Assembly: GCA_016235815.1 (NCBI GenBank)
Contig: JACRIM010000059.1
Span: forward strand, 1-38,856
Origin: Planctomycetota bacterium
GTDB lineage: Bacteria > Planctomycetota > Phycisphaerae > UBA1845 > UTPLA1
Length of the DNA stretch: 38,856 nucleotides
Reading direction: 5' to 3'
A model generated the notes under the pieces. The model saw only the letters and a program-made list of their open reading frames with translations, did not search any database and was not told where the DNA came from. Below are positions 8,101 through 38,711 of this stretch, piece by piece (positions within the stretch are counted from its first letter, which is position 1; each line of letters begins with the position of its first letter). The position numbers and the translations under genes were made by a program.

Positions 8101-8124
8101 GCCCTAATTCAAGGAGGCAGGCCA

Positions 8125-13104: not shown

Positions 13105-13113
13105 GACATTCTC

Positions 13114-13983: not shown

Positions 13984-14026
13984 AGTCCGCTTTCCAAGCC
14001 AGCGTCTTGGGTGCGATCAACGCCTG

Positions 14027-16395: not shown

Positions 16396-17183
16396 CAAAC
16401 TTCTCCTCGCATGGCGACGTGAATCTGGCGTTCCATCTCAATGAACGGCGCGGCCCGCGTGATCGAGCGATCCCGCGTAACTCCATAGGGTACTGAGAAT
16501 TCGCGCAGCAATCTAGCTGGCCTGGGGGAAAACACAGCGATGCGATCCCCAAGAAAAATGGCCTCCTCAACGTCGTGCGTTACGAAGACGATGGTAGTCG
16601 GGCTTTCGCGGCGCAGGTTGAGCAGCATTTCCTGCATCTGCCAGCGTGCTTGAGCATCGAGAGAGCCGAATGGTTCATCCATCAGAACGAGCTTCGGCTG
16701 AACGGCCAGCGTCCGAGCTATGGCAACGCGCTGTTGCATCCCGCCGGAGAGGTCCCTCGGATAGAACGACTCGAAGCCATCCAGCCCGACCTTACGGACC
16801 CAATCTGCAACAGTTTGGCGAACCTCGCCCGGATCATGTGGTCGAAGCCGCAAGCCGAAGGCGATGTTCTCCGAAACAGTAAGCCAAGCGAATGAAGTAA
16901 AGTCCTGGAATACCATGCCGCGTTCTGGCGACGGCCCCTGGACACGACGCCCGTCAAGCCGAACCTCACCGGATGATGGCGGTTCCAAACCCGCAATGAT
17001 CCTCAGGACCGTCGTCTTGCCGCAGCCGGATGGACCGAGCATTACGAACAACTCCCCTCGCTTCACCCGAATCGAGGTCGGTTCGAGGACAGGCAGGCGC
17101 GCGCCGTCACATTCAAAGCACTTCGCGAGTTCATCAAGAACAAGCGCGGCATCGTTTCGCGAACCTTCAGCCACATCACTCAT
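16395..17183 (-). CDS. ABC transporter ATP-binding protein, NitT/TauT family
   Basis: A 262-residue nucleotide-binding subunit that powers import by binding and hydrolysing ATP on the cytoplasmic face of the permease. Walker A is GPSGCGKTT, the Q-loop region is VFQDFTSFAW, the signature is LSGGMQQRVAIAR, Walker B is LVLMDEPFGSLD and the switch His lies in VTHDVEEA. Length and motifs fit the SsuB/TauB/NrtD group (aliphatic sulfonate, taurine, nitrate, thiamine-precursor importers). It lies 15 bases after the permease gene and overlaps the SPASM radical SAM gene by ATGA. Confidence 0.93.
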   Translation of the reverse strand: MSDVAEGSRNDAALVLDELAKCFECDGARLPVLEPTSIRVKRGELFVMLGPSGCGKTTVLRIIAGLEPPSSGEVRLDGRRVQGPSPERGMVFQDFTSFAWLTVSENIAFGLRLRPHDPGEVRQTVADWVRKVGLDGFESFYPRDLSGGMQQRVAIARTLAVQPKLVLMDEPFGSLDAQARWQMQEMLLNLRRESPTTIVFVTHDVEEAIFLGDRIAVFSPRPARLLREFSVPYGVTRDRSITRAAPFIEMERQIHVAMRGEV

Positions 17184-17198
17184 CTTCCACGCACCAAA

Positions 17199-17954
17199 CT
17201 AATTGCGCGCCCACGGGAATAGGAATCGATAACCGGCGCGAAAGCACAAGTCGCTTGCGACTCCCAAGAGTCCAATGATGCAAATGCCCGCCATGATTTT
17301 GGGAGTCTGCAGAAACCGCTGCGCATGAATTATCTTTGCACCGATTCCGGCTTCGGCCCCTACCAACTCAACAACCACGATCATTGTCCAACCAACCCCA
17401 AACATCGTGCGCATCGCGTTCCAGACATCAGGGGCGGCCGCGCGGACCACAACCTTCGTCACTACTTGCAGGCGATTCGCACCGAGTGTAAGTGCAGTAT
17501 CGATCCAAGGTTTCTTAACGTTTGCAGCTGCGTCAGCGACGAGCAGCACAAGATAAAAAAAGATCGACATGAAGACGAGCACGACATTTTCAACGTATCC
17601 GACGCCAAACCAGAGGATCGCAAGAGGAATGAACGCCGTTGCCGGCATGTATCGAATGAAGCCAATAATTGGGGCGAAGAATGTGTCGGTTGTCCGCGAT
17701 GCACCCATTAGGATGCCGAGTGGTACGCCGAAAGCCGCAGAAATCAAAAAACCGCCGAAAACACGAGCCAAACTCAATAAGATGTCATTGTGAAATCCCT
17801 CTTCGGCGAACATCCGAAACCCTTCGGAAATGACATTCGTAGGCGTCGGCAAGAAAAGAGCACGGACGACTCCGCCATAGCTCAGAATGCACCAAAGCGC
17901 CAACACGAGTAGGAACGGCGCTATGCCAAGAGCTCGTCGTTGCCCATGCTTCAC
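17199..17954 (-). CDS. ABC transporter permease, NitT/TauT family
   Basis: A 251-residue inner-membrane permease with about six helices, including one at the N-terminus (IAPFLLVLALWCIL). The EAA-type cytoplasmic loop, where the ATPase docks, reads DTALTLGANRLQVV. The pattern matches SsuC/TauC permeases of the binding-protein-dependent superfamily. The start is GTG at 17954 with GGAG 7 bases upstream. The gene lies 38 bases after the binding-protein gene and 15 before the ATPase. Substrate specificity cannot be read from the permease. Confidence 0.92.
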   Translation of the reverse strand: MKHGQRRALGIAPFLLVLALWCILSYGGVVRALFLPTPTNVISEGFRMFAEEGFHNDILLSLARVFGGFLISAAFGVPLGILMGASRTTDTFFAPIIGFIRYMPATAFIPLAILWFGVGYVENVVLVFMSIFFYLVLLVADAAANVKKPWIDTALTLGANRLQVVTKVVVRAAAPDVWNAMRTMFGVGWTMIVVVELVGAEAGIGAKIIHAQRFLQTPKIMAGICIIGLLGVASDLCFRAGYRFLFPWARN

Positions 17955-17992
17955 AAAAATGCTCCGATGATTCAGTAGGCAGCACGATCTGC

Positions 17993-19000
17993 TTACTTGT
18001 TCAAATCACGAAGGAAGGACACATCATAAGTCTTACGGGGATCAAGCTGTTTTTCTGTGTTGATTAGTCCCGCTTTCTTGTAAAGGTCCGCGGCAGTTTT
18101 GAACATTTGCTCAAATCGGTTCTCTCCGCTGGGAATGCCGAAGAACCGTAGGTTTTCGTCGTAGGACGGAAATCGTATTCCCTCAAGCATGCCGGCAAGC
18201 TCTTCGGGGGGAAGTTCAAGGTGCTTCGCCATCAGGGCGATGGCCTCCTGACGATGGTCCTTGACGAATTGAATAGCCTTGAACCACGCCCGCAACAGCG
18301 CAGTCACATCTTTCGGGTGGTCGCGCGCCAAGTTCGGATGCACGACGAATATGTCGGCGATCACTCCCGGGTGCTCTCGAGATGTTGTGATTACGCGGCC
18401 GTGCTCAGTCTCCTTTGCTTTGGTCAACCACGGTTCCCATGTGACTGCTGCGTCAACTTGTCCTGCAACGAACGCGGCACCAGCATCGCCGGCTTCCATT
18501 GGCTTCAGCGTGAAGTCGCTCGGCATCAACCCCTCTCTGTCGAGGAGATACAGGAGGAAGAAGTGTGAAGGGGTGGACTTGGCGCACGCGATGGTCTTGC
18601 CTTTGAGTTCGGCGAGAGAGGAGATCTCTTTTCTTGCGACGATGCCGTCGCCTCCGTAGGACTCGTCGACGACGAGCACTTCTAACGCGGGCAGGCCCTC
18701 CGCTAGACCGACGGCTAGGGAATCGACAGTCTCGACGGACGCATCCAGCTTTCCGGATGCGAGTGCCGCCCGACGAGCGCCAAAGTCATCGATTCGCGCA
18801 AGTTCGACGTTGAGCCCCTCTTCCTTGAAGAACCCCTTCTCCTGGGCGATGTAGAAGGGACCAAAACCGACCCAAGTGACGACAGCGACCCTGAGAGGTG
18901 TGCGCTCTCGCGAGGCCCATAGTCGCCAAACGACCAACACGACGACGATTGCGATGGCGGCGATCGCCGCACCAGTCTGGACCATCTTGCGATTCGGCAT
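17993..19000 (-). CDS. ABC transporter substrate-binding protein, SsuA/NMT1-like, membrane-anchored
   Basis: A 335-residue periplasmic-type solute-binding protein. A single N-terminal helix (about residues 9-27) has no lipobox Cys and no clear cleavage site, so it is probably an uncleaved anchor. The mature part opens with VAVVTWVGFGPFYIAQEKGFFKEEG, here matched in pieces (VGFGPFYIA, KGFFKEEG), typical of the NMT1/THI5-like and SsuA family. GGDGIVA and the TWEPWLTKA pair occur later. Related proteins bind sulfonates, nitrate, taurine or pyrimidine thiamine precursors. I chose ATG at 19000 because GGAG lies upstream at good spacing; the frame is open to 19036. It is the first gene of the eight-gene operon. 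Confidence 0.9.
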   Translation of the reverse strand: MPNRKMVQTGAAIAAIAIVVVLVVWRLWASRERTPLRVAVVTWVGFGPFYIAQEKGFFKEEGLNVELARIDDFGARRAALASGKLDASVETVDSLAVGLAEGLPALEVLVVDESYGGDGIVARKEISSLAELKGKTIACAKSTPSHFFLLYLLDREGLMPSDFTLKPMEAGDAGAAFVAGQVDAAVTWEPWLTKAKETEHGRVITTSREHPGVIADIFVVHPNLARDHPKDVTALLRAWFKAIQFVKDHRQEAIALMAKHLELPPEELAGMLEGIRFPSYDENLRFFGIPSGENRFEQMFKTAADLYKKAGLINTEKQLDPRKTYDVSFLRDLNK

Positions 19001-19344
19001 GGCGCATTCTCCATTGATAGGTTTAACCCGAGTCAAGGCGCTGCCGAGCGTTCATGTACAGCTCGACCAGGGGCTAAACATGTCGGCCCACGCGGCTGGA
19101 AATTATGCTCCGCGTGTGGTTCATGTCCAGCGATCTTGGCCTCAACCGCTAGACCCCGCTACCGGGTGCAGCTTATTCCGTCTTGTCGATGCTCGCCGAT
19201 CTCCCGGTCGGAACCACATTGTGCATTGTGTACTTGGCTGTTCGATTTGGCCAGATCGCAATCTTACGCCAAACTGCACGAATTCCTGGGCGCCGCAACG
19301 GCAGAGGGCGGTGGCGCAGGCTGACCCGTGGCTTAGATTCGCGC
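19001..19344. other. intergenic region upstream of the transporter/radical SAM operon
   Basis: These 344 bases separate the end of the helicase-methyltransferase gene from the start of the operon on the same strand, so the operon's promoter should lie here. No clear -35/-10 pair, riboswitch fold or gene was recognised. A short direct repeat (ATTGTG twice, 7 bases apart, near 19218-19230) is the only pattern noticed. Confidence 0.35.
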
Positions 19345-22300
19345 TTAGCGGCTCTTCGTTAGCTGGCGAGCGACGGCTTCTGTGAATCCCCGCTGATGTC
19401 CCTCTGCCTGGCGTGGGGCTTCCACGGTCCGCGATGCTGCGGCTTGGCGCAAGATACGCACCGTGACGGGCTCCTCGGCGTCGAGGCGGCGGGTGGCGGT
19501 GCGTTCGGGGGCCGCGTCGATGGCGTGGTCGGCCTTGAGGGCCTTGATCCGGTCGGCCAGCTCGGCAGTCGAGAGCAGCGGTTCGGCGGCGGGATCGGGA
19601 GCATCGTCGCCGCCGGCGTTCGATGGGACGCCGGCAAGGCTCGACTTGAGCCGGTCGCGCAGCGCGGTCAATTCAGCCTGGTACGACTCGTGGACGAACG
19701 GCTTGCCAATGCGGGCCTGATAGTCGCGGAGCTGCGACTCGGCGATTGAATGGTCCTGCTTTACGCCGGCAATCTCGTTGCCGTAGGCGTTGCAAAGGCG
19801 CTCCAGGGCGTTGAGCACGGCGCGCGGGCCGTGGCTGCCACGAATGAGACGGTCGTCGCGCGTCGTCGCGCCTTCGATGTACACGTCGGGCGGGAAGTCT
19901 CGATGCAGCACGAGGCCGAATCGCAGGCCGCGATACACGCCGAGCGGGCTTGGCTGTTCTTGCCGCACGTCGTGCGGCAGCTTGTCCAGTTGCGCGCCGA
20001 GCACGGCGATGGCCTCGTCCTTTGGATACTCGCGGCCGTTGATCGTGACCGGGTCGCGGGCGTGCGCGGTGGCTGTCGATTGATCGGCCGACAGGTTCGA
20101 CAGCCGATCGTTGAGCCGGGCGATTTTCTCGGGCAAATCCCGCACGTTGCGGCGGGCGACGTACTGCTCATCGACGTGATTCTTCTTCAACAGGGCGAGC
20201 CGCTGCAATTCGGCGTCGGCCTCGGCGAGCGTCAGCACGGCCGGGTTGCCGGAGGCAATCGCCTTCACTTCCGCGTAGGAAAGCTCCTGCCCGCCGACAT
20301 CCTCGGCGCGGCGGGCGGCATTGTGGCCGGTGATGACCTGGCCGATGAATCGGGCCTTCGTCTCCAGCGCCTGCCACATGTAGGCGTCGAACGAGCCTTC
20401 GGTGACATAGCGGTACACGGCCACTTCCTCGTTGGTGTTCCCCTGACGCAGGATGCGGCCCTCGCGCTGCTCGACCTCGGCTGGCTTCCACGGGGCGTCA
20501 AGGTGGTGCAGGGCGACCAGCCGCTGCTGTACGTTGGTGCCGGTGCCCATCTTTTGCGTGCTGCCGATTAACACGCGGACCGAGCCGTTGCGGACCTTCT
20601 CGAAGAGTGCCTGCTTCTTGGCGTCGGAATCGGCGTCGCCGATGGCTGCGATCTGCCCGCGCGGGATGCCGCGTGCAACCAGTTTTTCGATCACGTCGTC
20701 GTAGGCGGAGTATCCCCAAGGCGTCGCGTGTACACCCATGTCGCAGAAAATCATCTGCGCGCCGCGTGTCGCGGCCGATTTTTCCCATGTGCCGGCGACG
20801 TTTTCCACCATGCGGTTGATCTTTGAGCCGGGATCGTCGGGAGCGGAGGCGGAGAGCATCCGTCCGTCGAGGGCGAGCTTGCGGCCGTCGGTCGTGATGT
20901 TGAGGGCGTTGTCCTCGCGCGGGTCCACCTTCTCCGTCCGCAGCCGTTCGTATCGCGCAACGAGTCCGTCCTGAAGGGCGTGCTGCTCCGCCGACATTGG
21001 ACAGGCGACGACGATGGGCTTGCCGCTTTCGAGCCGCGGCCGCGGCAGGTTGAGCATGTCGGCCGTCTGCACGTCGGAAAAAGCACGAAACATCTGCTGC
21101 AATTCCGGGAGGTTGGTGAACTTGGCGAATCGGCTGCGCGGGCGCAACGACGCGCCGTCGGGCGAAATCTCCATCGTGTCGATGACTTCGCCGAACGTGG
21201 CCGCCCATGCGTCGAAGTGTTCCAGTCCCCGGCTCTTCAGTCCGGCCGGGTCGAGAAAGCGTTGCATGGTGTACATCTCGACCATCGTGTTCGACACTGG
21301 TGTGCCGGTGGCGAAGGTGACGCCGTAGCCGGGATGCTGCTCGCCCAGGTAGCTCGCCTTCATGTACACGTCGAAGGCTCGCTCGCTGCCGCCGGTCTGG
21401 ATGCCGGCGACGCGGTCCATCTTCGTCGGCGTCTCCAGGTTCTTGAAGAAGTGCGCCTCGTCGATGAACACATGATCGACGCCCAGCTCGTCGAACACGA
21501 GGCCGTCGTCCTTCTTCTCCTCGGCCAGCAGGTCCTTGAGGCGTTCGACGCGGGCCGCCTTCTGCTTCTCGATCTGCTTGATGATGTTGCGGTTCGACCC
21601 CTTGGCGCCGGCATGTTCAAGGAGCAGTTCGTCATACTCGGCGATCTGCTGCGTGAGGAACTTCTCCTGATATTCCCGCGACATGCCGATCCGCTCGAAC
21701 GAGGAATGCGTGACGAGGATGCCGTCCCAGTCGCCGCTGGCGATCTTGGCGGTGAGCAACTTGCGGCGGTCGCGGCGCAGATTCTCCTTGCCTGCGACCA
21801 GTAGTCGGGCGTTGGGGTAGAGCTGCATGAACTCGCGGGCGAATTGTTCCAGCAGGTGATTGGGCACGACGTACATCGGCTTCTTGACAAGGCCGGCCTG
21901 TTTCATCTTCATGCCGGTGGCAGCCATCGTGAACGTCTTGCCGGCGCCGACGGCGTGGGCCAGCAGCGTGTTGCCGGAACTCATCCCCCGCCATATCGCG
22001 TCGGCCTGGTGTGGCCGCAGGCGAATAGTCTGGTTCATGCCGGGGAAGTCGAGGTGCGAGCCATCGAAGAGGCGCGGCCGGAGATTGTTGTAATTGTCGT
22101 TGTAGATTCGCACGAGGCGTTCCGTGCGCTCAGGGTCGGCGAATACCCAGGCGCGGAAGCCCTCCTTGATAAGCTTCTGCTTCTCGCGGGCGGCGAGCGT
22201 CTCATTCTGGTTGACGACGCGCTCTTCCTTGTCGCCGTGGTCGATGATGTCGTAGATCACCGGCGACTTCATGTTGAGGGCCAATTCCAGCAGCCAAGCG

Positions 22301-24444
22301 CCGTTGGCGCGGGCCGTGCCGAAGTCGGAGGTTGCGGCGACCGACGCCCGCGCGGCGTGACCGGCGTCCAAGCTCCACACCGCGTCCTTCTGGAGGTGCG
22401 TCACCGGAACGGCTGACGCATCGACATGGAACAGGTGGGCCGCGAACGCCTGAATATCGCTCGCCGGAATCCACGGCGCGCCGAGATTGGCTTCGATGTC
22501 GCCCGGCAGCACGTCCTCGGGCTGCACGCGCCGCAGCGCCTCGGCATTCTGGCTGTAGGCCCGTCCGGCCTTCTCGGCAGCGGCCAGCCTGGCGCGGACG
22601 TTGCCCGACAGGTAATCGTCGGCGGTCTTCCACTGCTTCGACTCCGGATCGTGGTAGATCAGGTCGCCAAGTTCGGTGACGACCCGCTCCTCCGGCTTGC
22701 CGTACAGTTCGGCGATGAATGGCAGGTCCACCCTTCCCCGCTGGTTGAGCGATACCAGCAAGCCTTCCTCGGCGCTTCGGACCTGCGTGACGGGCGGGGT
22801 CCTGCCCACCACGTCCTTGCTCATGATGGCGGCTTTCTGGGCCTTTTCAGTGACTTCGTCGTAGTCTTCAAGCGACATCACGAGCATGGCGTCGGGATCT
22901 TCAATGAACTTGACCAGGTTGGGCCGGCGGCGGATGACGCTGCCGTCGCGGCTCTCGCTGAAGCTGGTTTTGTTGATCGGTCCGTAGGCGCGGTGGAACC
23001 GGTCGTAGGCTTGATTGAGTTCGCGCCGCGCTTCGTCTCGATGCTCCGCCGGCCAGCCTTCGTTCTGTGATTGCAGCACGCGGCGGGCGCGGTCGCGCAG
23101 GCCGATCAGGCCGGCGAGCCTTCGACCGGTCAACGTCCCGTTGGCTTTCAATGCCTTGCCGCCGTAATCGACGGCGACGCCCTGGCCGTTCACCAACTGG
23201 CAAATGGCGTTGTCGTCCCGGACGAAGAAACTCCCCTCGTTGATGTGCTTCTCGGGCGGCGGCGGCGTGAATGTCGCGGCGGTTTGCTCGGATTCGCGGG
23301 ACGCCGGCGCCATTTGGAATTGCGGCAACTGCCGGATTGCAACGTTTAGCTTTGCGGCGAGATCGCCGTCGCCGCGAACGCTGTAGCCTTCCCCGCCGTA
23401 AAGCGTGTCCTGCCTCGTCCAGGTGCCGAGCACCATCTCAGGGTGATTGAGGAAATAGCGGTTGACCGGAACTTCAACGCCGTCGATGGCGAGCGGGGCT
23501 ACGGCAAGCCATTGGGAATCGACGTGATGGGCCGGTTCGCCCGCTGCCCGCTTTCGCAGAAACACGATGTCGGTGACGACGGCCGTGCCTTCTCGCTTGA
23601 ACGCATCCGACGGCAGCCGAATCGCGCCGACAAAGTCGGCCTTGTCGCCGAGATTCTCGCGGACGGCAGCGTTCTGCTTGTCGAGCGTGAAATGCGATGT
23701 GACCACGGCCAGCACACCGCCGGGCTTCAGCGCATCGACCGACTTGGCTAGAAAGTAATCATGCAGTGACAGCTTCTGCCCGTGATAGTCGAGTTTGATG
23801 TCGGCGAACGGCACGTTGCCGACCACGGCGTCGATGCGATCCTCGGGCAGCTTCGTGTCGCGGAAACTCTCGGTGCGAATGTCATGTTCGGGATGCAATG
23901 CCCGCGCGATTCGGCCTGAGATTGAGTCGAGTTCGACGCCGATGAAGTGGTGCCGGCAGCTGCCGTGCCCCATGAAGTTGCCGATGCCGCATCCCGGTTC
24001 CAGGATGGTGGCATCGTCGGGAACGCCCAGCCGCGTGATAGCCTCGTGAATGGATGCGATGACGGTGGGCGACGTGTAGAAGGCGTTGAATGTCGTGCGT
24101 TTGGCGCTGTCGTACTCGGCGGGAGTAAGCAGGGATTTCAGTTCCTCGCCGAGCTTCTCCCAGCCGGCGTCCTTGTAGCGATGCGTCAACGGGTCGGGAA
24201 AGATCGACAGGGCGACCGGGCCGAAGCCGGCGAAGCGGGCGAGCGCCTGCCGCTCCTGCGGCGTCGCCGGTCGCTGTTCGCTTTCGACTGTCTGAAGCGT
24301 GCGGATGGCCGCGATGATGTCGCGGGCCTTTTCCTTCTCGCCGCTGGCGATCTGGACAGGTGTCGTCGGCTCGACCTTGTCGGTGGCCGGCGTGGTTCGA
24401 TCAGAAGACGGACGGGATTCAGACGGTGACGGAGCGGACAGCAA
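19345..24444 (-). CDS. giant N6-adenine methyltransferase-helicase protein of mobile elements
   Basis: A protein of about 1700 residues combining a DNA methyltransferase and a superfamily 2 helicase. Methyltransferase motif I ILEPGCGIGNF lies near base 24000, and the catalytic motif IV is the variant GNVPFAD instead of NPPY/F, near 23810. The helicase has Walker A HAVGAGKTF near 21950, a DEAH box FIDEAHFF near 21460, GTPVSNT near 21300, and the C-terminal motif QREGRILRQGN near 20460. A helical, charged tail follows. This architecture is common on plasmids and integrative elements, where it may protect incoming DNA from restriction. The start is unresolved. The frame is open to 24915, but its first 150 codons overlap the upstream small gene and read like non-coding, Arg/Pro-rich sequence. 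The TTG used here lies just after that overlap and lacks a good ribosome site. Confidence 0.85.
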   Translation of the reverse strand: MLSAPSPSESRPSSDRTTPATDKVEPTTPVQIASGEKEKARDIIAAIRTLQTVESEQRPATPQERQALARFAGFGPVALSIFPDPLTHRYKDAGWEKLGEELKSLLTPAEYDSAKRTTFNAFYTSPTVIASIHEAITRLGVPDDATILEPGCGIGNFMGHGSCRHHFIGVELDSISGRIARALHPEHDIRTESFRDTKLPEDRIDAVVGNVPFADIKLDYHGQKLSLHDYFLAKSVDALKPGGVLAVVTSHFTLDKQNAAVRENLGDKADFVGAIRLPSDAFKREGTAVVTDIVFLRKRAAGEPAHHVDSQWLAVAPLAIDGVEVPVNRYFLNHPEMVLGTWTRQDTLYGGEGYSVRGDGDLAAKLNVAIRQLPQFQMAPASRESEQTAATFTPPPPEKHINEGSFFVRDDNAICQLVNGQGVAVDYGGKALKANGTLTGRRLAGLIGLRDRARRVLQSQNEGWPAEHRDEARRELNQAYDRFHRAYGPINKTSFSESRDGSVIRRRPNLVKFIEDPDAMLVMSLEDYDEVTEKAQKAAIMSKDVVGRTPPVTQVRSAEEGLLVSLNQRGRVDLPFIAELYGKPEERVVTELGDLIYHDPESKQWKTADDYLSGNVRARLAAAEKAGRAYSQNAEALRRVQPEDVLPGDIEANLGAPWIPASDIQAFAAHLFHVDASAVPVTHLQKDAVWSLDAGHAARASVAATSDFGTARANGAWLLELALNMKSPVIYDIIDHGDKEERVVNQNETLAAREKQKLIKEGFRAWVFADPERTERLVRIYNDNYNNLRPRLFDGSHLDFPGMNQTIRLRPHQADAIWRGMSSGNTLLAHAVGAGKTFTMAATGMKMKQAGLVKKPMYVVPNHLLEQFAREFMQLYPNARLLVAGKENLRRDRRKLLTAKIASGDWDGILVTHSSFERIGMSREYQEKFLTQQIAEYDELLLEHAGAKGSNRNIIKQIEKQKAARVERLKDLLAEEKKDDGLVFDELGVDHVFIDEAHFFKNLETPTKMDRVAGIQTGGSERAFDVYMKASYLGEQHPGYGVTFATGTPVSNTMVEMYTMQRFLDPAGLKSRGLEHFDAWAATFGEVIDTMEISPDGASLRPRSRFAKFTNLPELQQMFRAFSDVQTADMLNLPRPRLESGKPIVVACPMSAEQHALQDGLVARYERLRTEKVDPREDNALNITTDGRKLALDGRMLSASAPDDPGSKINRMVENVAGTWEKSAATRGAQMIFCDMGVHATPWGYSAYDDVIEKLVARGIPRGQIAAIGDADSDAKKQALFEKVRNGSVRVLIGSTQKMGTGTNVQQRLVALHHLDAPWKPAEVEQREGRILRQGNTNEEVAVYRYVTEGSFDAYMWQALETKARFIGQVITGHNAARRAEDVGGQELSYAEVKAIASGNPAVLTLAEADAELQRLALLKKNHVDEQYVARRNVRDLPEKIARLNDRLSNLSADQSTATAHARDPVTINGREYPKDEAIAVLGAQLDKLPHDVRQEQPSPLGVYRGLRFGLVLHRDFPPDVYIEGATTRDDRLIRGSHGPRAVLNALERLCNAYGNEIAGVKQDHSIAESQLRDYQARIGKPFVHESYQAELTALRDRLKSSLAGVPSNAGGDDAPDPAAEPLLSTAELADRIKALKADHAIDAAPERTATRRLDAEEPVTVRILRQAAASRTVEAPRQAEGHQRGFTEAVARQLTKSR

Positions 24445-24473
24445 GTCGAACAGCGTCGGCTCGCCTGCCCATC

Positions 24474-24791
24474 TCAGGCGCGCGACGTGCGTTTGCGGGA
24501 CCGCGCCCTTGCGGTGCCCGACGACGAGGGGTTCCTTTCGGCCGGCAGCGACGCGTTCCGCAAACGAGGCTTCACCTCGGCGAGCGCGATCTCCATCGCC
24601 GCGCTGGCGAGCTGGATCGGATCGATGTCCGGATGGCTCCTGGGCAGATCCGCCTTCCAGTGTTCGTGGCGCGTCTTCAGTTCGCCTGCGTAGTGGTTCA
24701 CGACCGCGAGCACCTTCCGCTTGCGGCGAAGCCTGCCGTGAAGCCAGGGCTGCTGTCGAAGCAGCTCGATGATGATCGTCTTGTACGGCAT
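24474..24791 (-). CDS. small conserved plasmid/ICE-type protein upstream of the helicase-methyltransferase
   Basis: A 105-residue protein starting MPYKTIIIELLRQQPWL. It is mostly helical and basic, with a conserved-looking core ending near MEIALAEVK and an Arg/Ser-rich tail. The start has a near-perfect AGGAGG 5 bases upstream. I recall similar small proteins with the MPYKTI opening on integrative conjugative elements and plasmids, but know no function for them. It ends where the large helicase-methyltransferase most likely begins and overlaps only the doubtful N-terminal extension of that frame. This is the main argument for the shorter start of the larger gene. Confidence 0.7.
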   Translation of the reverse strand: MPYKTIIIELLRQQPWLHGRLRRKRKVLAVVNHYAGELKTRHEHWKADLPRSHPDIDPIQLASAAMEIALAEVKPRLRNASLPAERNPSSSGTARARSRKRTSRA

Positions 24792-25599
24792 GGTGGCCTC
24801 CTGATTGTGTGTCGGGGGGTTCTTCGAGCGCGACCGGCGGATCGTTCGCATCGGACGGGAACGGGAGAATGGGATGCTGAGGGGGACGTGACCTGCGACC
24901 CATGCTCAGGAACAATCAGGACGGTTGGGTTCCTGAGTGCCCGATCGGCCCCGAGAGTCTCCCGATCCGGCTTTCAGCGGTGACAGTTCGACAGTGCCCG
25001 CGTTGGGCTTTGCGAACAATTCGTTGTCACTATGCAACGTTCCGTCGGACATGTTCCCGCGATGCGATTCTTCGCAGTTCGCATAGCACGCTTTGAGGAA
25101 TCGTTCAACCGGAAACGCGGAACCGTGCTTCCTGATTGCGGCACGGCAGGCAAGCCGCCGGCGAGGCCCGCGAAATGGAGCAGGACGAATGACGGACCGG
25201 ACCCGAAGGGCGCCAAGCGGGTTCGGCGTGAAGCGTGCAAGCCTCGGAGGCGGAAAGCGAAGCGGTGCCGGCTGGGAGCAGCGGTTGAAAGCCGACAAGC
25301 AAAATGCCGCGCTGCCCAACGCTCTTATGGTGCAAGAGCGTCCCCCGTATCTCGTGTCGATTCATGCCGCGCGCTCGGTCGCTCGACGGTACTCTTTATG
25401 GCAGCGACAATGACAGGCGCGTCGATGCCCACATGGTTGCTAACCCAACGTCGGCCGTCGTTACGATCTACACGATCCTAGTTTTTTTGTAACGACGTTA
25501 GGAACGATGGTAAAGCAATTAGGAACGACTCGCCTGGATTCGTTACCGCCATGTTCGTTCCATGAGACTTACTCTGGCAGTACGATGTGAAATCACCCT
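24792..25599. other. 808-base gap with no supported gene
   Basis: Several frames are open here on both strands, but none has a good start or protein-like composition. The best of the weak candidates is a minus-strand frame beginning MSDGTLHSDNELF at 25052. The promoter of the helicase-methyltransferase unit should lie near its left end. The right end holds the inverted and direct repeats listed separately. Confidence 0.35.
25456..25528. repeat. inverted repeat followed by two 10-bp direct repeats 21 bp apart
   Basis: CGTCGTTAC at 25456-25464 and GTAACGACG at 25489-25497 are perfect 9-bp arms separated by 24 bases that include a run of seven T. Immediately after come two copies of TTAGGAACGA, at 25498-25507 and 25519-25528. 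Their 21-bp period equals two helical turns, so a protein could bind both on one face. The site lies in the gap between the helicase-methyltransferase gene and the FG-GAP protein gene. It could be a recombination site, operator or accessory replication site; the sequence does not decide. Confidence 0.5.
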
Positions 25600-28767: not shown

Positions 28768-29038
28768 CGCATCGACGATCGGATGTTGATGAACGCGTTG
28801 TAACAAGTGCCAGAAGTGTTGAATTGGTTATCGGGGTAGAGGATTCTGCTTTGCGTCGCTTCTCGTCTGTACGGCCTTCCTATTGCGAAGCGACGGCGGT
28901 TCAACCGGCTCGAATCCTCCCCTGAATGCCATACAGCCTCACCGCGAACTCGAAGTCACGGCTTCCTGGATCGTCCGCGCAACACTCGGCTTGCTCGGTG
29001 TTGCCTTCTCGTCGCGGCTCGTCTGATGTTCCCAAGAG

Positions 29039-29047
29039 TTATCCACA
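29039..29047 (+). promoter_or_regulatory. DnaA box
   Basis: TTATCCACA matches the strict DnaA-box consensus. It stands 153 bases before the first iteron and about 275 bases before the Rep start, the usual setting for host DnaA recruitment at a plasmid origin. Confidence 0.7.
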
Positions 29048-29199
29048 GGCTCGTCGCATGTTGGGGCGTTCTTTCAATGGCGTGCATAGGCCGACGCCGT
29101 CGCCAGCGATCCGGAGGCGCGCTCCGTCGTCGGCCACATTGGGTGCTATTTAGTGATAAGAAAGAGCGAGGGTGCAACCCTTTGATTTTCCTCGAACCG

Positions 29200-29262
29200 A
29201 ACCGTCACGATTTGACGGCCAACCGTCAGGATTGGTCGGTGAACCGTCAAAAAGGACTTGCG
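29200..29262 (+). repeat. iterons (three copies, 21-bp period)
   Basis: AACCGTCA occurs at 29200-29207, 29221-29228 and 29242-29249, exactly 21 bases apart. The first two units also share GATT about 9 bases in and a TGACGG or GTCGG end. The first unit therefore includes the inverted pair CCGTCA/TGACGG. The third unit is partial. Spacing of two helical turns and position 58 bases before the Rep gene indicate Rep-binding iterons. Confidence 0.8.
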
Positions 29263-29320
29263 CCTTTGTCGGTAGTGTGCCAACGTGCTGTCTGTCTAGT
29301 GACAAATTCGGAGGGGGAAA

Positions 29321-29947
29321 ATGACGGAAGGACGACAGAACACGGTGTTTGCGGATAATCAGGTCAGCACGAAGCGCGGCTTCCCTGTGTACCGAACGAA
29401 TCCGAGCGTGCCGACTACAAGCGGCCTGACGACGCGGACCAAGCGGTTCCACGTGCCTGGCGGCAGGGGATCGGTCATCGTGGACAACAGCAGCGGTGAA
29501 ATCAAAGGCATCGGCGGCATGGGCTTCTGGTGGGAAGAGGAAGTGGACAGCAGCCGATTCGTGAAGATGTTCCTCGACGGCATCAAACAGGCGGCGGACC
29601 TGTCCAAGACAGGCTTGCAGGTGTTCGAGCTCGTCTACCACGAAATGCGGGCGAATCCCGGCTCCGACGAAATCAAGCTCAATCAATACGTCGCCAAGGA
29701 TCACGGGATCAGCGACCGCACCTACCAGCGGGGCGTTCGGGAATTGCTGGAGAAGGAATTCCTGTACCGAAGTCCCAGCGACGGCGTGTTCTTCGTCAAC
29801 ATCCGGTTCATGTTCAACGGGGACCGCCTCGCCTTCGTGCGGACGTACCATCTCAAGGGAGCGGGCCGGCAACAGGAACTCCAGCTTGGCGACACGCCGA
29901 CTGCCCTGCCTTCTCCCGATCCAGACGACGAATCAGCGAACAATTGA
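29321..29947 (+). CDS. plasmid replication initiator (winged-helix Rep, RepL-like)
   Basis: A 208-residue protein that should bind the iterons upstream and start replication. The N-terminal 70 residues are polar and beta-rich. Residues about 75-175 look like a winged helix. A helical part (FVKMFLDGIKQAAD, LQVFELVYHEM) leads to a recognition-helix region, DHGISDRTYQRGVRELLE, and a wing with KEFLYRSPSDGVFFVN. The order resembles RepL/RepA-type initiators; I cannot assign a precise family. GGAGGGGG lies 3-4 bases before the ATG at 29321, a strong ribosome site. Iterons and a DnaA box immediately upstream support the role more than sequence likeness does. Confidence 0.75.
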   Translation: MTEGRQNTVFADNQVSTKRGFPVYRTNPSVPTTSGLTTRTKRFHVPGGRGSVIVDNSSGEIKGIGGMGFWWEEEVDSSRFVKMFLDGIKQAADLSKTGLQVFELVYHEMRANPGSDEIKLNQYVAKDHGISDRTYQRGVRELLEKEFLYRSPSDGVFFVNIRFMFNGDRLAFVRTYHLKGAGRQQELQLGDTPTALPSPDPDDESANN

Positions 29948-30899: not shown

Positions 30900-30957
30900 C
30901 GAACTGAGTTCGTCCGGTTCGTGGGTGATTCTACAACGAGTTTAACAACATGCTCAA
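30900..30957 (-). promoter_or_regulatory. promoter with palindromic operator for the hypothetical gene
   Basis: On the minus strand TTGAGC (30952-30957) and TAGAAT (30928-30933) are separated by 18 bases, a fair sigma-70-type promoter. Just downstream of the expected start point lies the perfect inverted repeat CGAACT-G-AGTTCG (30900-30912). It ends 46 bases before the gene at 30854. A repressor bound there would block transcription; candidates are the element's RHH or HTH proteins. Confidence 0.45.
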
Positions 30958-31244
30958 GACAGGTAGCCGTTGGCTTTGAGCCAAGGCTCGATGGCTTCTT
31001 CGAGAATGTCCTGGAGCGTGTTCGGCTCCCTGCCCTCTAGCTGCCGCTCAAGCGACGCACGCTTCAGAGCTCGCGCGTAGTCGTCGCGGATGCGCGTGCT
31101 GATCGGTACGCGGCTCAAATTAGGTGCGGCAACATTGGGCTTGGCCGGCTCCTTCTCACCGAATACGAACGCCTTTTCCTTGCCAATGTCGATCGGCGGC
31201 GGCGTAGCTTTCAATCCCTCGGTAAGTGAACGTCTTTCGGCCAT
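30954..31244 (-). CDS. ribbon-helix-helix partition partner (ParB-like centromere-binding protein)
   Basis: A 96-residue protein. A flexible N-terminal half is followed by a C-terminal ribbon-helix-helix. The beta strand VPISTRIRDD is followed by helices YARALKRASLERQLEG and LQDILEEAIEPWL. Small RHH proteins directly after ParA act as centromere-binding and autoregulating partners in type Ib-like plasmid partition. The ATG at 31244 has AGGGGA about 9 bases upstream; the in-frame GTG at 31253 is too close to it. The gene begins 13 bases after the ParA stop. The likely binding site is the repeat array at 31944-32120. Confidence 0.82.
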   Translation of the reverse strand: MAERRSLTEGLKATPPPIDIGKEKAFVFGEKEPAKPNVAAPNLSRVPISTRIRDDYARALKRASLERQLEGREPNTLQDILEEAIEPWLKANGYLS

Positions 31245-31257
31245 CGCTTGCACTCCC

Positions 31258-31923
31258 CTACCCTTTCATCGCCTGGTGTTTCGCGGCCGGCGTCACGGCG
31301 TCCGGCAGTATCTCGCGGAAAAGCGCGTCGGCTTCATGGGCGGCTTCGCGGGCGCGGGCGCCCAGATTCCAGACGACGGACCCCTGCCCCGGCGCGTCGG
31401 CGTAAATCTGGCGCAGAATCATCGCGTTTGAAGCCAGCGGTAGAGATAGTGCCGCCGCGGCGTCCTTCATGTCCTGCGTCAGTCGGTAATTCTTTCCGAT
31501 CATGCTCAGGACGATGATGGCCTTGGGTATCCCGCCCCGTATGTCCTGGGCTTGGCGCAGTACCTCGGTCGCCTTGGCGAGTGCCCGGACCTCTAACATG
31601 CTGGCCTTACAGGGAACAATTGCCAAGTCGCCGCGTAACAAGAGCGCGCGGCTGGTTTCAGTCTGACTGCCCGGTCCGTCGGCTACGACGTAGTCGGCGT
31701 CCTGGGCGAGAATCGGCAGCTCGTTCAATATGATGTCGGGGGTGTCGAGGCGGACCGCCTTCACCTCGGGTATCGCCTCGCGTATCCATTCCGACGATGA
31801 TTGCTGCGTGTCGCAATCGGCGAGCGTCACCTTGTGGCCCTGCTCGTAGAGCCAAGCGGCCAGGTGGACGGACAGCGTCGATTTGCCGACGCCCCCTTTG
31901 GAGTTTGCCACGACAATAATCAT
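31258..31923 (-). CDS. parA: ParA-type partition ATPase
   Basis: A 221-residue Walker-type ATPase that segregates plasmid copies by forming a dynamic gradient on nucleoid DNA. The deviant Walker A is KGGVGKST at residues 10-17, the A' motif is DCDTQQSS and Walker B lies in YVVADGPG. It is short and lacks the N-terminal HTH of large ParA proteins, so the RHH partner should provide autoregulation. I chose the ATG at 31923, which opens with the MIIVVANSKGG motif; the frame runs on to 31983 without coding character. The ribosome site is weak. It is the first gene of the parA-RHH operon, and the repeat array lies immediately upstream. Confidence 0.92.
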   Translation of the reverse strand: MIIVVANSKGGVGKSTLSVHLAAWLYEQGHKVTLADCDTQQSSSEWIREAIPEVKAVRLDTPDIILNELPILAQDADYVVADGPGSQTETSRALLLRGDLAIVPCKASMLEVRALAKATEVLRQAQDIRGGIPKAIIVLSMIGKNYRLTQDMKDAAAALSLPLASNAMILRQIYADAPGQGSVVWNLGARAREAAHEADALFREILPDAVTPAAKHQAMKG

Positions 31924-31943
31924 GCCTGATGGATAGCATGATT

Positions 31944-32120
31944 TCATGCAGGCTGGCAAGCAGTATTTGCATCCGTCATGCAAGCTCGCCGTCTTGCAAG
32001 CAATCTTTCATGCTTGCTTACTCGCAAGCCAGACTGATTGCTTTCCATCCGTCTTGCTATCCTGCCGTCCTGCAATCTGTCATGCCAGACTGACGACATG
32101 CCGTCATGCTTTCATGCAGG
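31944..32120. repeat. centromere-like repeat array upstream of parA
   Basis: About ten degenerate copies of a short unit close to GTCWTGCAAG occur here. Examples are TCATGCAGGC (31944), GTCATGCAAG (31976), GTCTTGCAAG (31991), TCATGCTTGC (32008), GTCTTGCTAT (32051), GTCCTGCAAT (32067), GTCATGCCAG (32079), GTCATGCTTT (32103) and TTCATGCAGG (32111). Several neighbours are 8, 12, 15 or 16 bases apart. Dense short repeats beside parA are the hallmark of plasmid centromeres (parS/parC) bound by RHH proteins, and they often also serve as the par-operon operator. Confidence 0.75.
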
Positions 32121-34580: not shown

Positions 34581-37229
34581 ATGCTTCGCATTACGCAGAA
34601 TACCGCGCCGCAGGGCGCGAAGTGCTACTACTCCACCGCCGACTATTACTCGGAAGGTCAGGAGCTTACCGGCCGCTGGTGCGGCGAGGGGGCCAAGCGC
34701 CTCGGTCTTGCTGGAACCGTGCAGCAGAAGGACTGGGACGCGCTCTGCGACAACCGCGATCCCAACATTGGACGGGTATTGACCGTGCGGCAGAATCAGG
34801 GCCGTCGCGTCGGCTACGACTTCAACTTTCATGTACCGAAGAGCGTGTCCGTGCTCTACGGCGTCTCGAAGGATGATCGCATCCTGGAGGCGTTCCGCGA
34901 GTCGGTCGGCGCAACCATGCGGGACATAGAAGCGGAAATGCAGACCCGCGTCCGTGCGAAGGGTCAAAATGAAGACCGCTTGACTGGCAACATGGTATGG
35001 GGCGAGTTCATCCACACGACCGCTCGGCCGGTGGACGGCGTGCCCGATCCGCACCTGCACGCGCACTGCTTCGTGTTCAACACGACCTGGGACGAGAAGG
35101 AGGGCCGCTGGAAGGCCGGGCAGTTCGCGGGACTCAAGCGCGACGCGCCGTACTTCGAGGCGGTGTTTCATTCGCGGCTGGCGCGGAAGCTGGAAGAGTT
35201 TGGCCTGCCGGTGGAACGCACAAAAAAGGGCTGGGAGCTTGCCGGCGTCCCGAAGCCGGCGACGGAAAAGTTCTCACGGCGCACGGCGCTCATCGAAGAC
35301 AAGGCGCGGGAGAAGGGCATCACTAACGCCGAAGATAAGGGCGAGCTTGGCGCGAAGACGCGGGAGCGCAAGCGTAAGGATCTGACCTTCGATGAATTGC
35401 GACGGGAATGGAAGTCGCGGCTCTCGCCGGATGAACTGGCGGCGCTGGACGCCGTCAGGGGCCGGCTCGGACAAAAGAGCATCGCGGAGGACGACCGCCT
35501 CGCCGGCGAAGCTGTTGCGCGGGCCGTCGAGCATTCGTTCGAGCGGAATTCCGTGGTGCCGGAGCGGAAGCTCCTGGCCACGGCACTCAAGCGATCCTAC
35601 GGCGCTGCATCGCCGAACACCGTGATGGGGAAACTGGCCGGGCACAACCTCGTCGGCGCGGAGCGCGACGGTCAGCGGTTTGTGACGACGGCCGATGTGC
35701 TCCAGGAAGAGCTAGGGATGATCGCGTTCGCGCGACAGGGCAGGGGGACTTGCCGTCGCCTGGGCGACGGCACGCACACCTTCAAACGCGACTGGCTCAA
35801 CGCCGATCAGCGAAGCGCCGTGCTGCATGTCCTCAACTCGCCGGATCGCGTCATGCTCATCCGTGGCGGAGCCGGCACGGGCAAGACGACGATGATGACG
35901 GAAGCCGTCGAAGCGATTGAGGCGCATGGCAAGCATGTCTTCACTTTCGCGCCCTCAGCTGACGCGAGCCGCGGAGTGCTGCGGCGGGAAGGATTCGCCG
36001 ACGCCGAAACCGTTGCACGGTTGCTCAAGGATGAACAGCTTCAGGCGAAGGCGCGCGGACAGGTGCTATGGATCGACGAAGCCGGGCTTCTCGGAACGAA
36101 AGCGATGGCGCAGGTGTTCGACCTGGCTGACCGCCTCGATGCCCGCGTGATTCTCTCGGGGGACCGGAGGCAGCACGGCTCAGTGGAGCGCGGGGCAGCG
36201 CTCAGGCTGCTGGAGGAAGGGGCGGGCCTGGTTCCCGCCGAAGTCCGCGAAATACAACGGCAAAAAGGCGCGTACAAACAGGCCGTGCAGGCGCTCAGTG
36301 AAGGGCGGACGGAAGAGGGGTTCCGGCAACTCGACAAGCTGGGCTGGGTGCGCGAAGTCACGGACAGTGAGCGCTGCGAGGCGCTGGCGGAGGACTACGT
36401 CACCACAGTCGCCGAAGGCAAGTCGGCGCTGGTGGTATCCCCAACCCATGCTGAAGGCAAGAAAATCACGAACGAAATACGTTCGCATCTCAAGCAGACC
36501 GGCCGGCTTTCCGGCGGCGAGCATCGCATGTTGACGCTCCAGAACGCCAATTACACCGAAGCCGAGCGAAGCGATCCGTTGAACTACTCGGCCGGCGATG
36601 TGCTGGTGTTCCACCAGAACGCCAAGGGCCACCGCAAGGGCGAGCGCCTCGTCGTCGGCAATGATCCGCTGCCGCTCTCCGAAGCGGCGAAGTTCACGGT
36701 GTATTACCCCGATATCCTGCCGGTTGCGGCGGGCGACAGCCTTCGCATCACGCGCAACGGCACGACCGTCGATGGCGAGCACCGCCTCAACAACGGCGCG
36801 ACTTTCACCGTGAAAGATTTCGACGCGAAAGGCAACATCGTTCTCACGAACGGTTGGAAAATCGCCCGCGACTTCGGGCACATTGCTTATGGCTATGTCG
36901 TAACGAGCCACGCAAGCCAGGGACGAACGGTGGACCGCGTCTTCATCGGCGAGTCGGCGCAGAGTTTTCCGGCGGCGTCGCGCGAGCAGTTTTACGTCTC
37001 GGTCTCGCGCGGCCGGCAGCGAGCGACGATCTATACCGACGACAAGGAAGCGCTGCTCGATGCCGTCAGCCGCTCCGACGACCGGCTCTCGGCGACGGAG
37101 TTTTTGAACGGCCGCGAGTTTCGCGAGCGAGCATTCATGTTCGAGCGGCTGGAACAATTGCAGCCAGCGTCCCAAGACGCGCAACGCATAGCTCAACTGG
37201 AAGAACGGAGAATGGACTATGAGCGGTAG
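34581..37229 (+). CDS. MobF-type conjugative relaxase-helicase (TrwC/TraI-like)
   Basis: An 882-residue protein that should nick one strand at oriT through a tyrosine, stay attached to the 5' end and unwind DNA for transfer. The relaxase domain has paired tyrosines near the N-terminus (Y16-Y17 and Y22-Y23) and the metal-binding triad H158, H160 and H162 (PHLHAH). The helicase (superfamily 1) follows, with Walker A GGAGTGKTT at 429-437, IDEAGL as Walker B, SGDRRQHGSV, and the C-terminal motif VTSHASQGRTVDRV with YVSVSRGRQ. It is shorter than TrwC (about 966) or F TraI (about 1756), lacking long extra domains, but both activities look complete. The ribosome site is weak. It overlaps the next gene by 11 bases. 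Confidence 0.95.
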   Translation: MLRITQNTAPQGAKCYYSTADYYSEGQELTGRWCGEGAKRLGLAGTVQQKDWDALCDNRDPNIGRVLTVRQNQGRRVGYDFNFHVPKSVSVLYGVSKDDRILEAFRESVGATMRDIEAEMQTRVRAKGQNEDRLTGNMVWGEFIHTTARPVDGVPDPHLHAHCFVFNTTWDEKEGRWKAGQFAGLKRDAPYFEAVFHSRLARKLEEFGLPVERTKKGWELAGVPKPATEKFSRRTALIEDKAREKGITNAEDKGELGAKTRERKRKDLTFDELRREWKSRLSPDELAALDAVRGRLGQKSIAEDDRLAGEAVARAVEHSFERNSVVPERKLLATALKRSYGAASPNTVMGKLAGHNLVGAERDGQRFVTTADVLQEELGMIAFARQGRGTCRRLGDGTHTFKRDWLNADQRSAVLHVLNSPDRVMLIRGGAGTGKTTMMTEAVEAIEAHGKHVFTFAPSADASRGVLRREGFADAETVARLLKDEQLQAKARGQVLWIDEAGLLGTKAMAQVFDLADRLDARVILSGDRRQHGSVERGAALRLLEEGAGLVPAEVREIQRQKGAYKQAVQALSEGRTEEGFRQLDKLGWVREVTDSERCEALAEDYVTTVAEGKSALVVSPTHAEGKKITNEIRSHLKQTGRLSGGEHRMLTLQNANYTEAERSDPLNYSAGDVLVFHQNAKGHRKGERLVVGNDPLPLSEAAKFTVYYPDILPVAAGDSLRITRNGTTVDGEHRLNNGATFTVKDFDAKGNIVLTNGWKIARDFGHIAYGYVVTSHASQGRTVDRVFIGESAQSFPAASREQFYVSVSRGRQRATIYTDDKEALLDAVSRSDDRLSATEFLNGREFRERAFMFERLEQLQPASQDAQRIAQLEERRMDYER

Positions 37230-38011: not shown

Positions 38012-38711
38012 CTAAATCGAAATCCTCTCCACCACGTTCCTGGTGACCGTCCGATCGCGGCGGTCATAAAGACGTGTCGTTCTGGGATCGGCGTGGCCTA
38101 GCAGTTCCTGAACGTCCTCAAGCGGTACGCCCTGTTCCAGAAGATCGGTTGCGGTGGTGGCGCGGAAGGAATGGCAGGTCAGGATCGAAGGAAGTCCGGC
38201 GGCTTTCAGCCGGCGTTTGACCATGCGGTGGATGTCCTTAGCCTGAAACGGACGCTCGCTCAATTGCAGCGTCCGGCCGAGCGCGGCGCGAAAGAGCGGC
38301 GCGTCGTGGTCGCCGGGAGCGGCGGCGATGTATTCCTCGATGTAGCCCTGCAAATCATGCCGGCAGGGGATCTGACGAGCGGCTCCGCCCTTCTCATCGA
38401 GCCGCAAATACCACTGACGGCCGTCGGTATGGAAGTCGCGACGCCGGAGCTTCGAGACCGCGCCGACGCGGCAGGCCGTGTACATCATGGTGGCGAGAAT
38501 CGCCCGGTCGCGGAGTCCGACGACATGGCCGGTGGTGATGGATTGAAGCAACGCCCGCGCGTTCGCCGGGTCGGTGGACGGCGTCTTGCCGGAGACGTTT
38601 CTGACTCTCGGGCCGCGAACGGAAGCGGCCGGATTCAGGACGACGGCGTGGCGCTGCACGAGCGCGTCGAAAAACTTTCGGATCGCAGCCAGGTGAAGTT
38701 TCTGGGTCGGC
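38012..38711 (-). pseudogene. tyrosine recombinase gene truncated at its 5' end by an insertion sequence
   Basis: The remaining frame encodes about 232 residues of a XerC/D-like recombinase. The surviving part begins in the middle of the core-binding domain (LAAIRKFFDALVQRH) and includes the whole catalytic domain. This has Arg in ACRVGAVSKL, Lys in DEKGGAARQ, HSFR, LLGH and the nucleophile Tyr in TRLYDRR. The frame stays open up to 38711 and then meets a CTAG and foreign sequence, so about the first 80-100 residues are missing. Translation could still start at GTG 38659, giving 215 residues without the DNA-clamping domain, which should be inactive. It was probably a multimer-resolution or integration enzyme of the element before the insertion. 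Confidence 0.82.

Follow-up and report, generated by a model that had tools for sequence, protein, structure and literature searches.

Comparative sequence evidence indicates, with good probability, that the region upstream of and including a rep gene in this planctomycete DNA is a vegetative replication origin (oriV) with its initiator gene, of the RepL/RepY (PF05732) type, carried by an integrative mobilizable element of the Planctomycetota. By analogy, the element can probably copy itself once excised, since distant plasmids that are reported to replicate share its repeat layout. The window, by which we mean the whole stretch of DNA analysed (38,856 bp), is an entire contig (C42), and its relevant features are as follows.

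19345–24915, −, large helicase/methyltransferase-like backbone gene (ResIII/SNF2 domains; shared with 5 of 8 chromosomal regions at 79–89% DNA identity)
29039–29047, +, DnaA box TTATCCACA (exact match)
29088–29135, +, predicted hairpin with outer stem, inner stem and conserved loop (covariance model and covariation)
29157–29164, +, AAGAA box, TAAGAAAG (near-invariant columns in alignment A1)
29176–29187, +, AACCCTTTGATT box directly before the array (similar box in homologues by eye)
29200–29249, +, iteron array with a 21-bp period (CGTCA half-sites at 29203, 29224 and 29245; inverted half-sites at 29213 and 29234)
29258–29304, +, probable rep promoter/operator (extra half-sites TGTCG at 29267–29271 and TGACA at 29300–29304)
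29321–29947, +, rep, encoding a RepL/RepY-type winged-helix protein of 208 aa (Pfam RepL, PF05732, E 1.3e-5)
30954–31253, −, small partner gene beside parA, possibly ribbon-helix-helix (Pfam 56B_RHH E 0.012, below cutoff)
31258–31983, −, parA partition ATPase (PHROG ParA E 1.5e-36; Pfam CbiA and related)
34581–37229, +, MobF (TrwC-type) relaxase-helicase (Pfam TrwC E 2.6e-69)
38012–38659, −, tyrosine recombinase, C-terminal part (Phage_integrase E 7.6e-24; the N-terminal part is on contig C30 of the same genome)

A phased array of half-sites precedes rep

The three repeats of exact 21-bp period that an earlier note on this DNA had claimed before a Rep gene were located at 29200, 29221 and 29242, and these are the only copies of AACCGTCA in the window. 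Their count alone is weak evidence (3 found against 1.19 expected, with at least 3 in 13 of 100 shuffles). When the 141 nt preceding the ATG were shuffled 100 times by dinucleotides, no shuffle gave a perfect three-fold 8-mer at one spacing between 18 and 24 (row L001). The direct CGTCA half-sites alternate with inverted ones, TGACG (29213–29217) and GGTCG (29234–29238). Each unit of 21 bp, or roughly two turns of the helix, forms an imperfect palindrome, and the sequence is therefore a half-site array rather than a series of simple direct iterons. The five half-sites of the window score 23 out of 25.

For comparison we assembled 48 distinct upstream regions, 42 from genomes and 6 from plasmids; nine duplicates, two loci with too little upstream sequence (L033 and L035), and L052, L055 and L056 are absent from this set. 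L027 and L034, which had wrong start points in the half-site and period tests, are counted there as scored and were excluded from the helix comparison below. In 40 of the 48 regions no more than 2 of 100 shuffles equalled the score for five alternating half-sites at 21 bp, so the check that had been proposed, a search for the same iterons beside homologous Rep genes, found them present; the eight regions that failed at this level were L032, L039, L049, L058, L059, L060, L062 and L063. When three direct 8-mers were scored instead, 21 was the best period among 18–24 in 42 of 48 regions, and in 36 of the 48, one of them with period 22, no more than 2 of 100 shuffles reached the score. For most closer relatives, and also for L045, L053 and the Acidisoma plasmid, the start of the array is at −118 relative to the ATG. 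Judged by these comparisons, the array belongs to the Rep family, whose homologues keep it at a nearly fixed distance before rep. Because close relatives are not independent, the stronger support comes from distant homologues, in which the letters vary while the layout is constant. As in an iteron-type oriV, phased repeats adjoin rep and are conserved with it. To this extent the "iteron-type origin" of the earlier note stands, with the refinement that the unit is palindromic and the half-sites alternate.

Rep is a RepL/RepY-type winged-helix protein

The gene that follows the repeats had been called a winged-helix Rep gene, and this description held: an AlphaFold model built from 27 sequences (mean pLDDT 60) predicts a winged helix-turn-helix (wHTH) at residues 77–159, where pLDDT is mostly near 80–88, and the protein matches Pfam RepL with 25.2 bits, above the gathering score of 20.3. 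Membership of a non-initiator family, which had been named as grounds for abandoning the origin, did not appear, as PF05732 includes the reported initiators RepY and pMOS6 Rep. Among 24 diverse Rep relatives, 9 matched PF05732 at E≤0.01. At E≤1 the only Pfam matches were RepL and a sub-threshold HTH_36, with no Rep_3/TrfA-type theta initiator, and NCBIfam and PHROGs returned nothing at E up to 1. Foldseek searches with the Rep model recovered wHTH regulators (best E 0.028, none significant); the best PDB sequence match, also at E 0.028, was unrelated and was set aside. Tyr24 and Tyr106 are invariant in 27 closer relatives, which have no invariant His, and the 24 diverse relatives have neither an invariant Tyr nor an invariant His; an HUH nickase site is therefore not visible in Rep. 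Against seven relatives, dN/dS over residues 34–190 is 0.006–0.075, which indicates that the gene is maintained under purifying selection.

Relatives of Rep were found in 11 of 150 genomes, the window's own included, and the remaining 10 carry 16 copies. A scan of genome contigs gave 39 Rep loci, mostly from Planctomycetota at 68–91% identity; one further locus is titled Cyanobacteria (83%) and one Verrucomicrobia (72%). Loci at 47–56% identity derive from Proteobacteria, Bacteroidota, Cyanobacteria and one Pirellulaceae bin, and three others are partial or outside these groups. Among plasmids, 190 records contain a Rep relative at E≤0.01. They include plasmids of 2.7–3.4 kb on which the RepL relative is the sole replication candidate seen in the PLSDB annotation, which is incomplete. 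Relatives are reported to be functional in plasmid replication, which Rep itself may also support.

Half-site letters vary with the recognition helix

We compared the recognition helix with the half-sites in 47 rows; for L025, L041 and L054, in which the printed phase was shifted, the half-sites were read from the sequence. In every one of the 30 loci with an RTYQRG helix, one or more of the direct half-sites read CGTCA or CGACA, and these loci include L044 (Pseudomonadales) and L045 (Bacteroidota). An RTFRRG or RTYRRG helix, found in two lineages (L040, L041 and L046), is accompanied by GGACA, GGCCA or GGTCA in 3 of 3 loci. The Rep of L046 is 73–76% identical to those of L044 and L045 and 52% identical to that of L041, and between the L041 protein and the window's Rep the identity is 66%; two events therefore seem to lie behind the joint difference of Gln to Arg and C to G. 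All three loci with a PATFRRG helix (L047, L048 and L053) have AATCA/GCTCA, so that an Arg in this position is not in every case accompanied by G. Other pairings are VTYRRG with GTTCA and GCGCA (L049), KYHRA with AGACA (L051), and TYYxG with TCCGC (L050; as TTCCGC in L054) or TCTCC (L057). The half-site letters thus vary together with the recognition helix, which suggests that the repeats are probably Rep sites. The link is an association, confounded by ancestry and with exceptions to a simple reading, and does not amount to proof of binding. We did not meet this association in print; if the reading is right, it would provide a test of specificity and a means to predict the compatibility of co-resident copies.

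The DnaA box and other conserved boxes

The DnaA box that had been claimed upstream of rep is exact, and it is the sole perfect copy of TTATCCACA in the window; with up to one mismatch the window holds 5 copies against 3.67 expected, which is the level of chance. In 37 loci of Rep relatives (355,470 bp), 10 of the 11 perfect copies fall in the stretch of up to 420 bp that precedes rep and have the same strand as the gene; these stretches make up 4.2% of the total, and since the loci are related the copies are not 10 independent events. A perfect box is present in 14 of 32 closer upstream regions and missing from the other 18, and hence is not universal. At −320 to −250, a box within one mismatch occurs in 15 of the 32 closer regions and in none of the 32 in a control interval. 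The DnaA box looked for in an iteron-type oriV is thus exact in the window and enriched before rep in relatives.

By eye, the AAGAA box has counterparts in distant homologues (TAAGAAG/GAGAAG); it is a possible strand-opening element. Between the array and rep, a −35-like TTGCGC/TTGACA can be seen by eye in homologues, in keeping with a probable promoter/operator of rep at this place.

A covarying hairpin between the DnaA box and the AAGAA box

The earlier note had overlooked a hairpin in this region. In the window, 9 of the 10 positions of its outer stem are paired, with one C/T mismatch, and the inner stem reads AGCG/CGCT; it scores 61.6 bits (E 6.9e-11) against a covariance model whose training set includes the window sequence. 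An alignment of 25 closer regions, 24 of them distinct, shows 22 double-sided-change cells in the ten-pair stem before the AAGAA box, compared with 6.0 in shuffles, and 89% of cells are paired; when the stem partner is slid by 1–3 columns just 3–5 such cells remain. One-sided changes in the ten-pair stem (5 cells) are confined to the outermost pair, a pattern more in line with pairing in DNA than in RNA, although 5 cells of the added inner stem are wobble pairs. The single-sequence DNA fold is ordinary (z −0.56, with 58 of 200 shuffles folding equally well), so the case for the hairpin rests on covariation.

The covariance model was built from 20 rows, with L022, L027, L030, L041 and the duplicate L020 excluded. 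In 359 kb from eight chromosomal copies, of which three or their duplicates are also in the training set, it located a single site upstream of rep in all 8 of 8, and the only other match below E 0.1 was the same site on the opposite strand. Outside the training set, on-site matches were obtained for L041, L027, L049 (E 6.9e-8), L022, L050 (4.4e-5), L040 (1.5e-4) and L030 (0.0018). In that same search, which is larger than that of the plasmids below, off-site matches begin at E 0.05 (20–22 bits), and the on-site matches of L054, L061/L064 and L045 (E 0.21–0.97) therefore prove nothing alone; five distant loci (L044, L046, L048, L051 and L053) gave no match at E 1. Among 11 plasmid sources, pMOS6, p5041 and pDSM110277_f match on-site with 16.7–18.3 bits (E 0.055–0.13), scores below those of the off-site chance matches of the larger search, and the other eight gave no match up to E 10. 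The place of these three matches and a loop likeness seen by eye (GCGTGACGAGCGCCACT in pMOS6, GCGTGGTGAGCGCCACT in L028) incline us to take them as real, though these signs are no more than suggestive. In several distant loci the stem base reads, by eye, TTAyCCAC...GTGGATAA. Rfam returned no match for the window at gathering scores and none for 28900–29400 at E up to 5. We did not meet a description of the hairpin in print; a drawing may exist in a supplementary figure of PMC3832669.

These observations might be drawn together more boldly, in a reading that we hold to be rather doubtful: RepL/RepY-type origins would share an undescribed, obligatory single-strand hairpin, together with DnaA-dependent helicase/primase loading and a recognition-helix code. 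Such a class would be large and common to Planctomycetota, Verrucomicrobiota and Proteobacteria, and possibly to Bacteroidota and Cyanobacteria, and its start would differ both from the classical iteron-theta type and from HUH rolling-circle origins. In distant members the stem base by eye forms two inverted DnaA-box-like arms, and the hairpin, as DNA, may then mediate loading through DnaA; within RT(Y/F)xRG helices Gln136 would pair with C, and Arg with G, as the first half-site base. The proposal is made less probable by the plasmid hairpin matches, which are no stronger than chance matches of the larger search, and by the PATFRRG loci, which also have Arg and whose first base is A or G.

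The element and its chromosomal location

The small partner gene and parA lie beside rep in 20 of 26 loci (L018–L043). A relative of the MobF relaxase is present in all 10 rep-bearing relative genomes, and in 15 of the 16 copies of other genomes it lies within 9 kb of rep, none having been found on G012:C39; elsewhere, as on G012:C22, a relative of the relaxase is present and this rep is not. Copies of the backbone were seen in large contigs: G019 has three in a contig of 3.4 Mb, G013 has one in a contig of 4.3 Mb, and CP054190.1, whose title calls it a complete chromosome, has two. Judged by these contigs, copies of the element are located in the chromosomes of relatives.

The 3′ end of the window matches G008:C14 down to region base 15788, from which C30:136–487 resumes, and this shared endpoint indicates that the window and C30 hold consecutive parts of one recombinase gene, which is split over the two contigs with about 280 unmatched bases between. 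The connection of the window to C30 is thus drawn from comparison with G008:C14. C30 carries, in order, a NACHT protein, ParB, a type IV secretion system (T4SS) coupling protein (7644–9623; T4SS-DNA_transf E 1.6e-71), a large serine recombinase and tRNA-Met, followed by UvrD, a ManC-like gene and ClpB. The serine recombinase is 92% identical to that of G008 and ends inside tRNA-Met, an arrangement that G008 has as well. A search of the window's own genome for a relative of G008's coupling protein, run without a control, gave no match, and no other copy of the 20-base tRNA-Met 3′ end was found there, with up to 2 mismatches, as a second attachment site.

With a MobF relaxase, an integrase and a chromosomal location, the last by way of the presumed C30 link, the element has the features of an integrative and mobilizable element, and it is very probably integrated in its own chromosome. 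The earlier note had left the choice between a plasmid and a formerly replicating integrated element; the chromosomal copies and the C30 context favour the integrated form, and "formerly replicating" is disfavoured by an intact Rep with uniformly low dN/dS in the seven comparisons above. A circular contig was rejected, as no exact terminal repeat of 10–299 bases was found and the continuation on C30 also argues against it. We also considered whether an insertion sequence might lie where the window and C30 part, and saw no target duplication in the ends inspected. The window integrase at 698–2017 was discarded as a shared backbone gene: its matches in 8 of the 10 rep-bearing genomes are mostly weak and do not lie beside rep, that on G035:C17 being some 28 kb from it.

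Several other genes of the element and its relatives deserve mention in their own right. Window 3900–8100 encodes a protein with two GHKL-type ATPase domains and then a 603-aa partner with no family above cutoff; this possible defence pair adjoins restriction-modification genes, and in the product of 8125–10674 an Eco57I/N6-type methylase is fused to a BsuBI/PstI restriction enzyme in a single chain. The cargo at 11743–19036 includes two radical-SAM proteins and an ABC transporter with an NMT1/THI5-like binding protein. A conserved block of ∼165 bp (25138–25303; 78–87%) has changed sides relative to the helicase gene when the window is compared with G008:C14 and with two copies of G019. In the sister element G008:C14, a Gabija pair (L067 1025–4506; GajA E 7.9e-194, GajB E 1.4e-175) lies beside the helicase. 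On C30, the NACHT-domain protein (L086 823–4941) has 1372 aa, lies between the recombinase fragment and ParB, and had no match in PADLOC.

Proposed mechanism and alternative explanations

In the mechanism we propose, Rep would bind the palindromic half-sites of the phased array and, helped by DnaA, open the AT-rich AAGAA region, and it would repress its own transcription through the further half-sites that the rep promoter overlaps. Whether extruded or exposed on single-stranded DNA, the hairpin might serve helicase/primase loading or the lagging-strand start; this is the least certain step. The recombinase would excise the element, and the circle would replicate transiently, held by ParA/ParB and mobilised by the MobF relaxase. 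The island SGI1 offers a precedent for replication of an integrated island after excision (PMC7433901), and the reported dispensability of the RepL-like gene SEN1990 of ROD21 (PMC10655114) speaks against reading the region as an oriV. On the mode of replication the literature points in two directions: staphylococcal RepL plasmids are described as rolling-circle (PMC5703833), and for pBAS2 neither an obvious nick site nor ssDNA was reported (PMC5779722).

One alternative is that Rep is a transcription regulator only, with the repeats as its operators and no origin in the integrated elements. Deletion of SEN1990 left copy number and the excised form unchanged, and besides SEN1990 one gene is reported to have changed significantly in expression (PMC10655114); moreover, half-sites lie within the likely rep promoter, and the best structural neighbours of the modelled Rep, none significant, are wHTH regulators. 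We nevertheless regard this as quite unlikely: the hairpin, the DnaA box and the AAGAA box are conserved though an operator needs none of them, PF05732 relatives are reported as initiators (PMC9025767, PMC3832669), and with ROD21 excised in just 3% the replication of a subset might be missed (PMC10655114). A rolling-circle origin, with RepL nicking near the AAGAA box and the hairpin as single-strand origin, is also unlikely in our view. It would agree with the classification of the staphylococcal (pSN2) plasmids, which have a dso and an ssoA (PMC5703833), and with a covarying hairpin that has a conserved loop, and Tyr24 and Tyr106 are invariant in the 27 closer relatives. No HUH site is visible, however, given that His is invariant in neither set of relatives and Tyr is not in the wider one; neither an obvious nick site nor ssDNA was reported for the RepL plasmid pBAS2 (PMC5779722), and DnaA boxes with phased sites fit theta initiation.

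That the hairpin region instead serves conjugation, as a transfer origin or as a site of priming, and is not a vegetative origin, we consider highly improbable. The proximity of the relaxase to rep in 15 of 16 copies would suit it, and a poorly transcribed region upstream of SEN1990 has been suggested as a possible transfer origin of ROD21 (PMC10655114), but the hairpin stays with rep and is 5.4 kb from the relaxase gene in the window, MobQ plasmids also have a hairpin before rep (by eye in Acidisoma, as a weak match in pMOS6), and on pMOS6 the predicted oriT is a separate site, located between the mob genes (PMC3832669). It is very unlikely, too, that a formerly used origin is now decaying in the integrated element. 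Integration itself and the tyrosine recombinase gene split by some 280 unmatched bases are compatible with decay, which is opposed by the intact Rep under purifying selection, by half-sites that score 23/25, and by a hairpin of 61.6 bits with only one outer-stem mismatch. An oriV with a RepL/RepY-type initiator therefore remains our preferred reading.

Planctomycetota have few genetic tools. If the preferred reading is right, the region is a defined, clonable origin-initiator cassette for this phylum, and a family of chromosomal elements is linked to the plasmid replicons of other phyla. The role of the conserved hairpin would then become testable, as would the way in which RepL/RepY initiators, with no visible HUH nickase site, begin replication.

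Comparison with known replicons

Repeats of 21 bp before a RepL-family gene are already in print. On pMOS6 of Paracoccus marcusii, for which autonomous replication is reported as "data not shown", two identical 18-bp repeats lie 3 bp apart (PMC3832669). For pDSM110277_f of Sulfitobacter pontiacus, with a calculated 124 copies, replication in P. inhibens is reported from the RepY gene when it is flanked by no less than 450 bp on its upstream side and 100 bp on its downstream side (PMC9025767). Upstream of the latter gene we found AGCGAA repeats with a 21-bp period at −118, and pMOS6 has the same period (each 0 of 200 shuffles). Like the window, both have a PF05732 initiator after the 21-bp-period array, a GAGAAG box (by eye) and a weak hairpin match, the pDSM110277_f RepY being 30% identical to the window's Rep; unlike it, they are plasmids with AGCGAA half-sites and show no MobF element or integration. 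Seven of ten plasmids tested had repeats at ≤7 of 200 shuffles (six at period 21 and an E. coli plasmid at 22), those of the Comamonas plasmid being weak at 7/200. Ungapped three-fold repeats were not found in the other three, Enterobacter 2.9 kb, Sulfuriferula pl1 and Rhizobium pC5.7b (165–186 of 200 shuffles). The Sulfuriferula plasmid has CCGCAAAA at −173, −152 and −130; separately, we note that its gene order (SGTM_pl1, L095 865–2352), with rep, a small reverse gene and a reverse parA, is that of the planctomycete elements.

The best plasmid Rep (52% identity) is that of the 13.3-kb Acidisoma sp. plasmid NZ_CP126998.1, which resembles the window in its 21-bp array, a hairpin seen by eye, parA and a relaxase, and differs in that it is a circular plasmid with a MobQ relaxase and its hairpin is not found by the model. 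The staphylococcal RepL plasmids (pSN2 family) share the RepL domain with an HTH and differ in being described as rolling-circle with dso/ssoA (PMC5703833).

Two integrated islands invite comparison. ROD21 has, like the window, a RepL-like wHTH gene (SEN1990, Salmonella) on an integrated island with a relaxase, and differs in that deletion of this gene is reported to have had no effect on copy number; its authors note that, with the island excised in just 3%, replication of the small excised subset might be missed (PMC10655114). SGI1 is likewise an integrated mobilizable island and is reported to replicate after excision with a rep and an iteron oriV that includes a DnaA box (PMC7433901), all of which the window element resembles, whereas its initiator is of the RepA_C type, its 17-bp iterons lie downstream of rep, and it is under helper-plasmid control.
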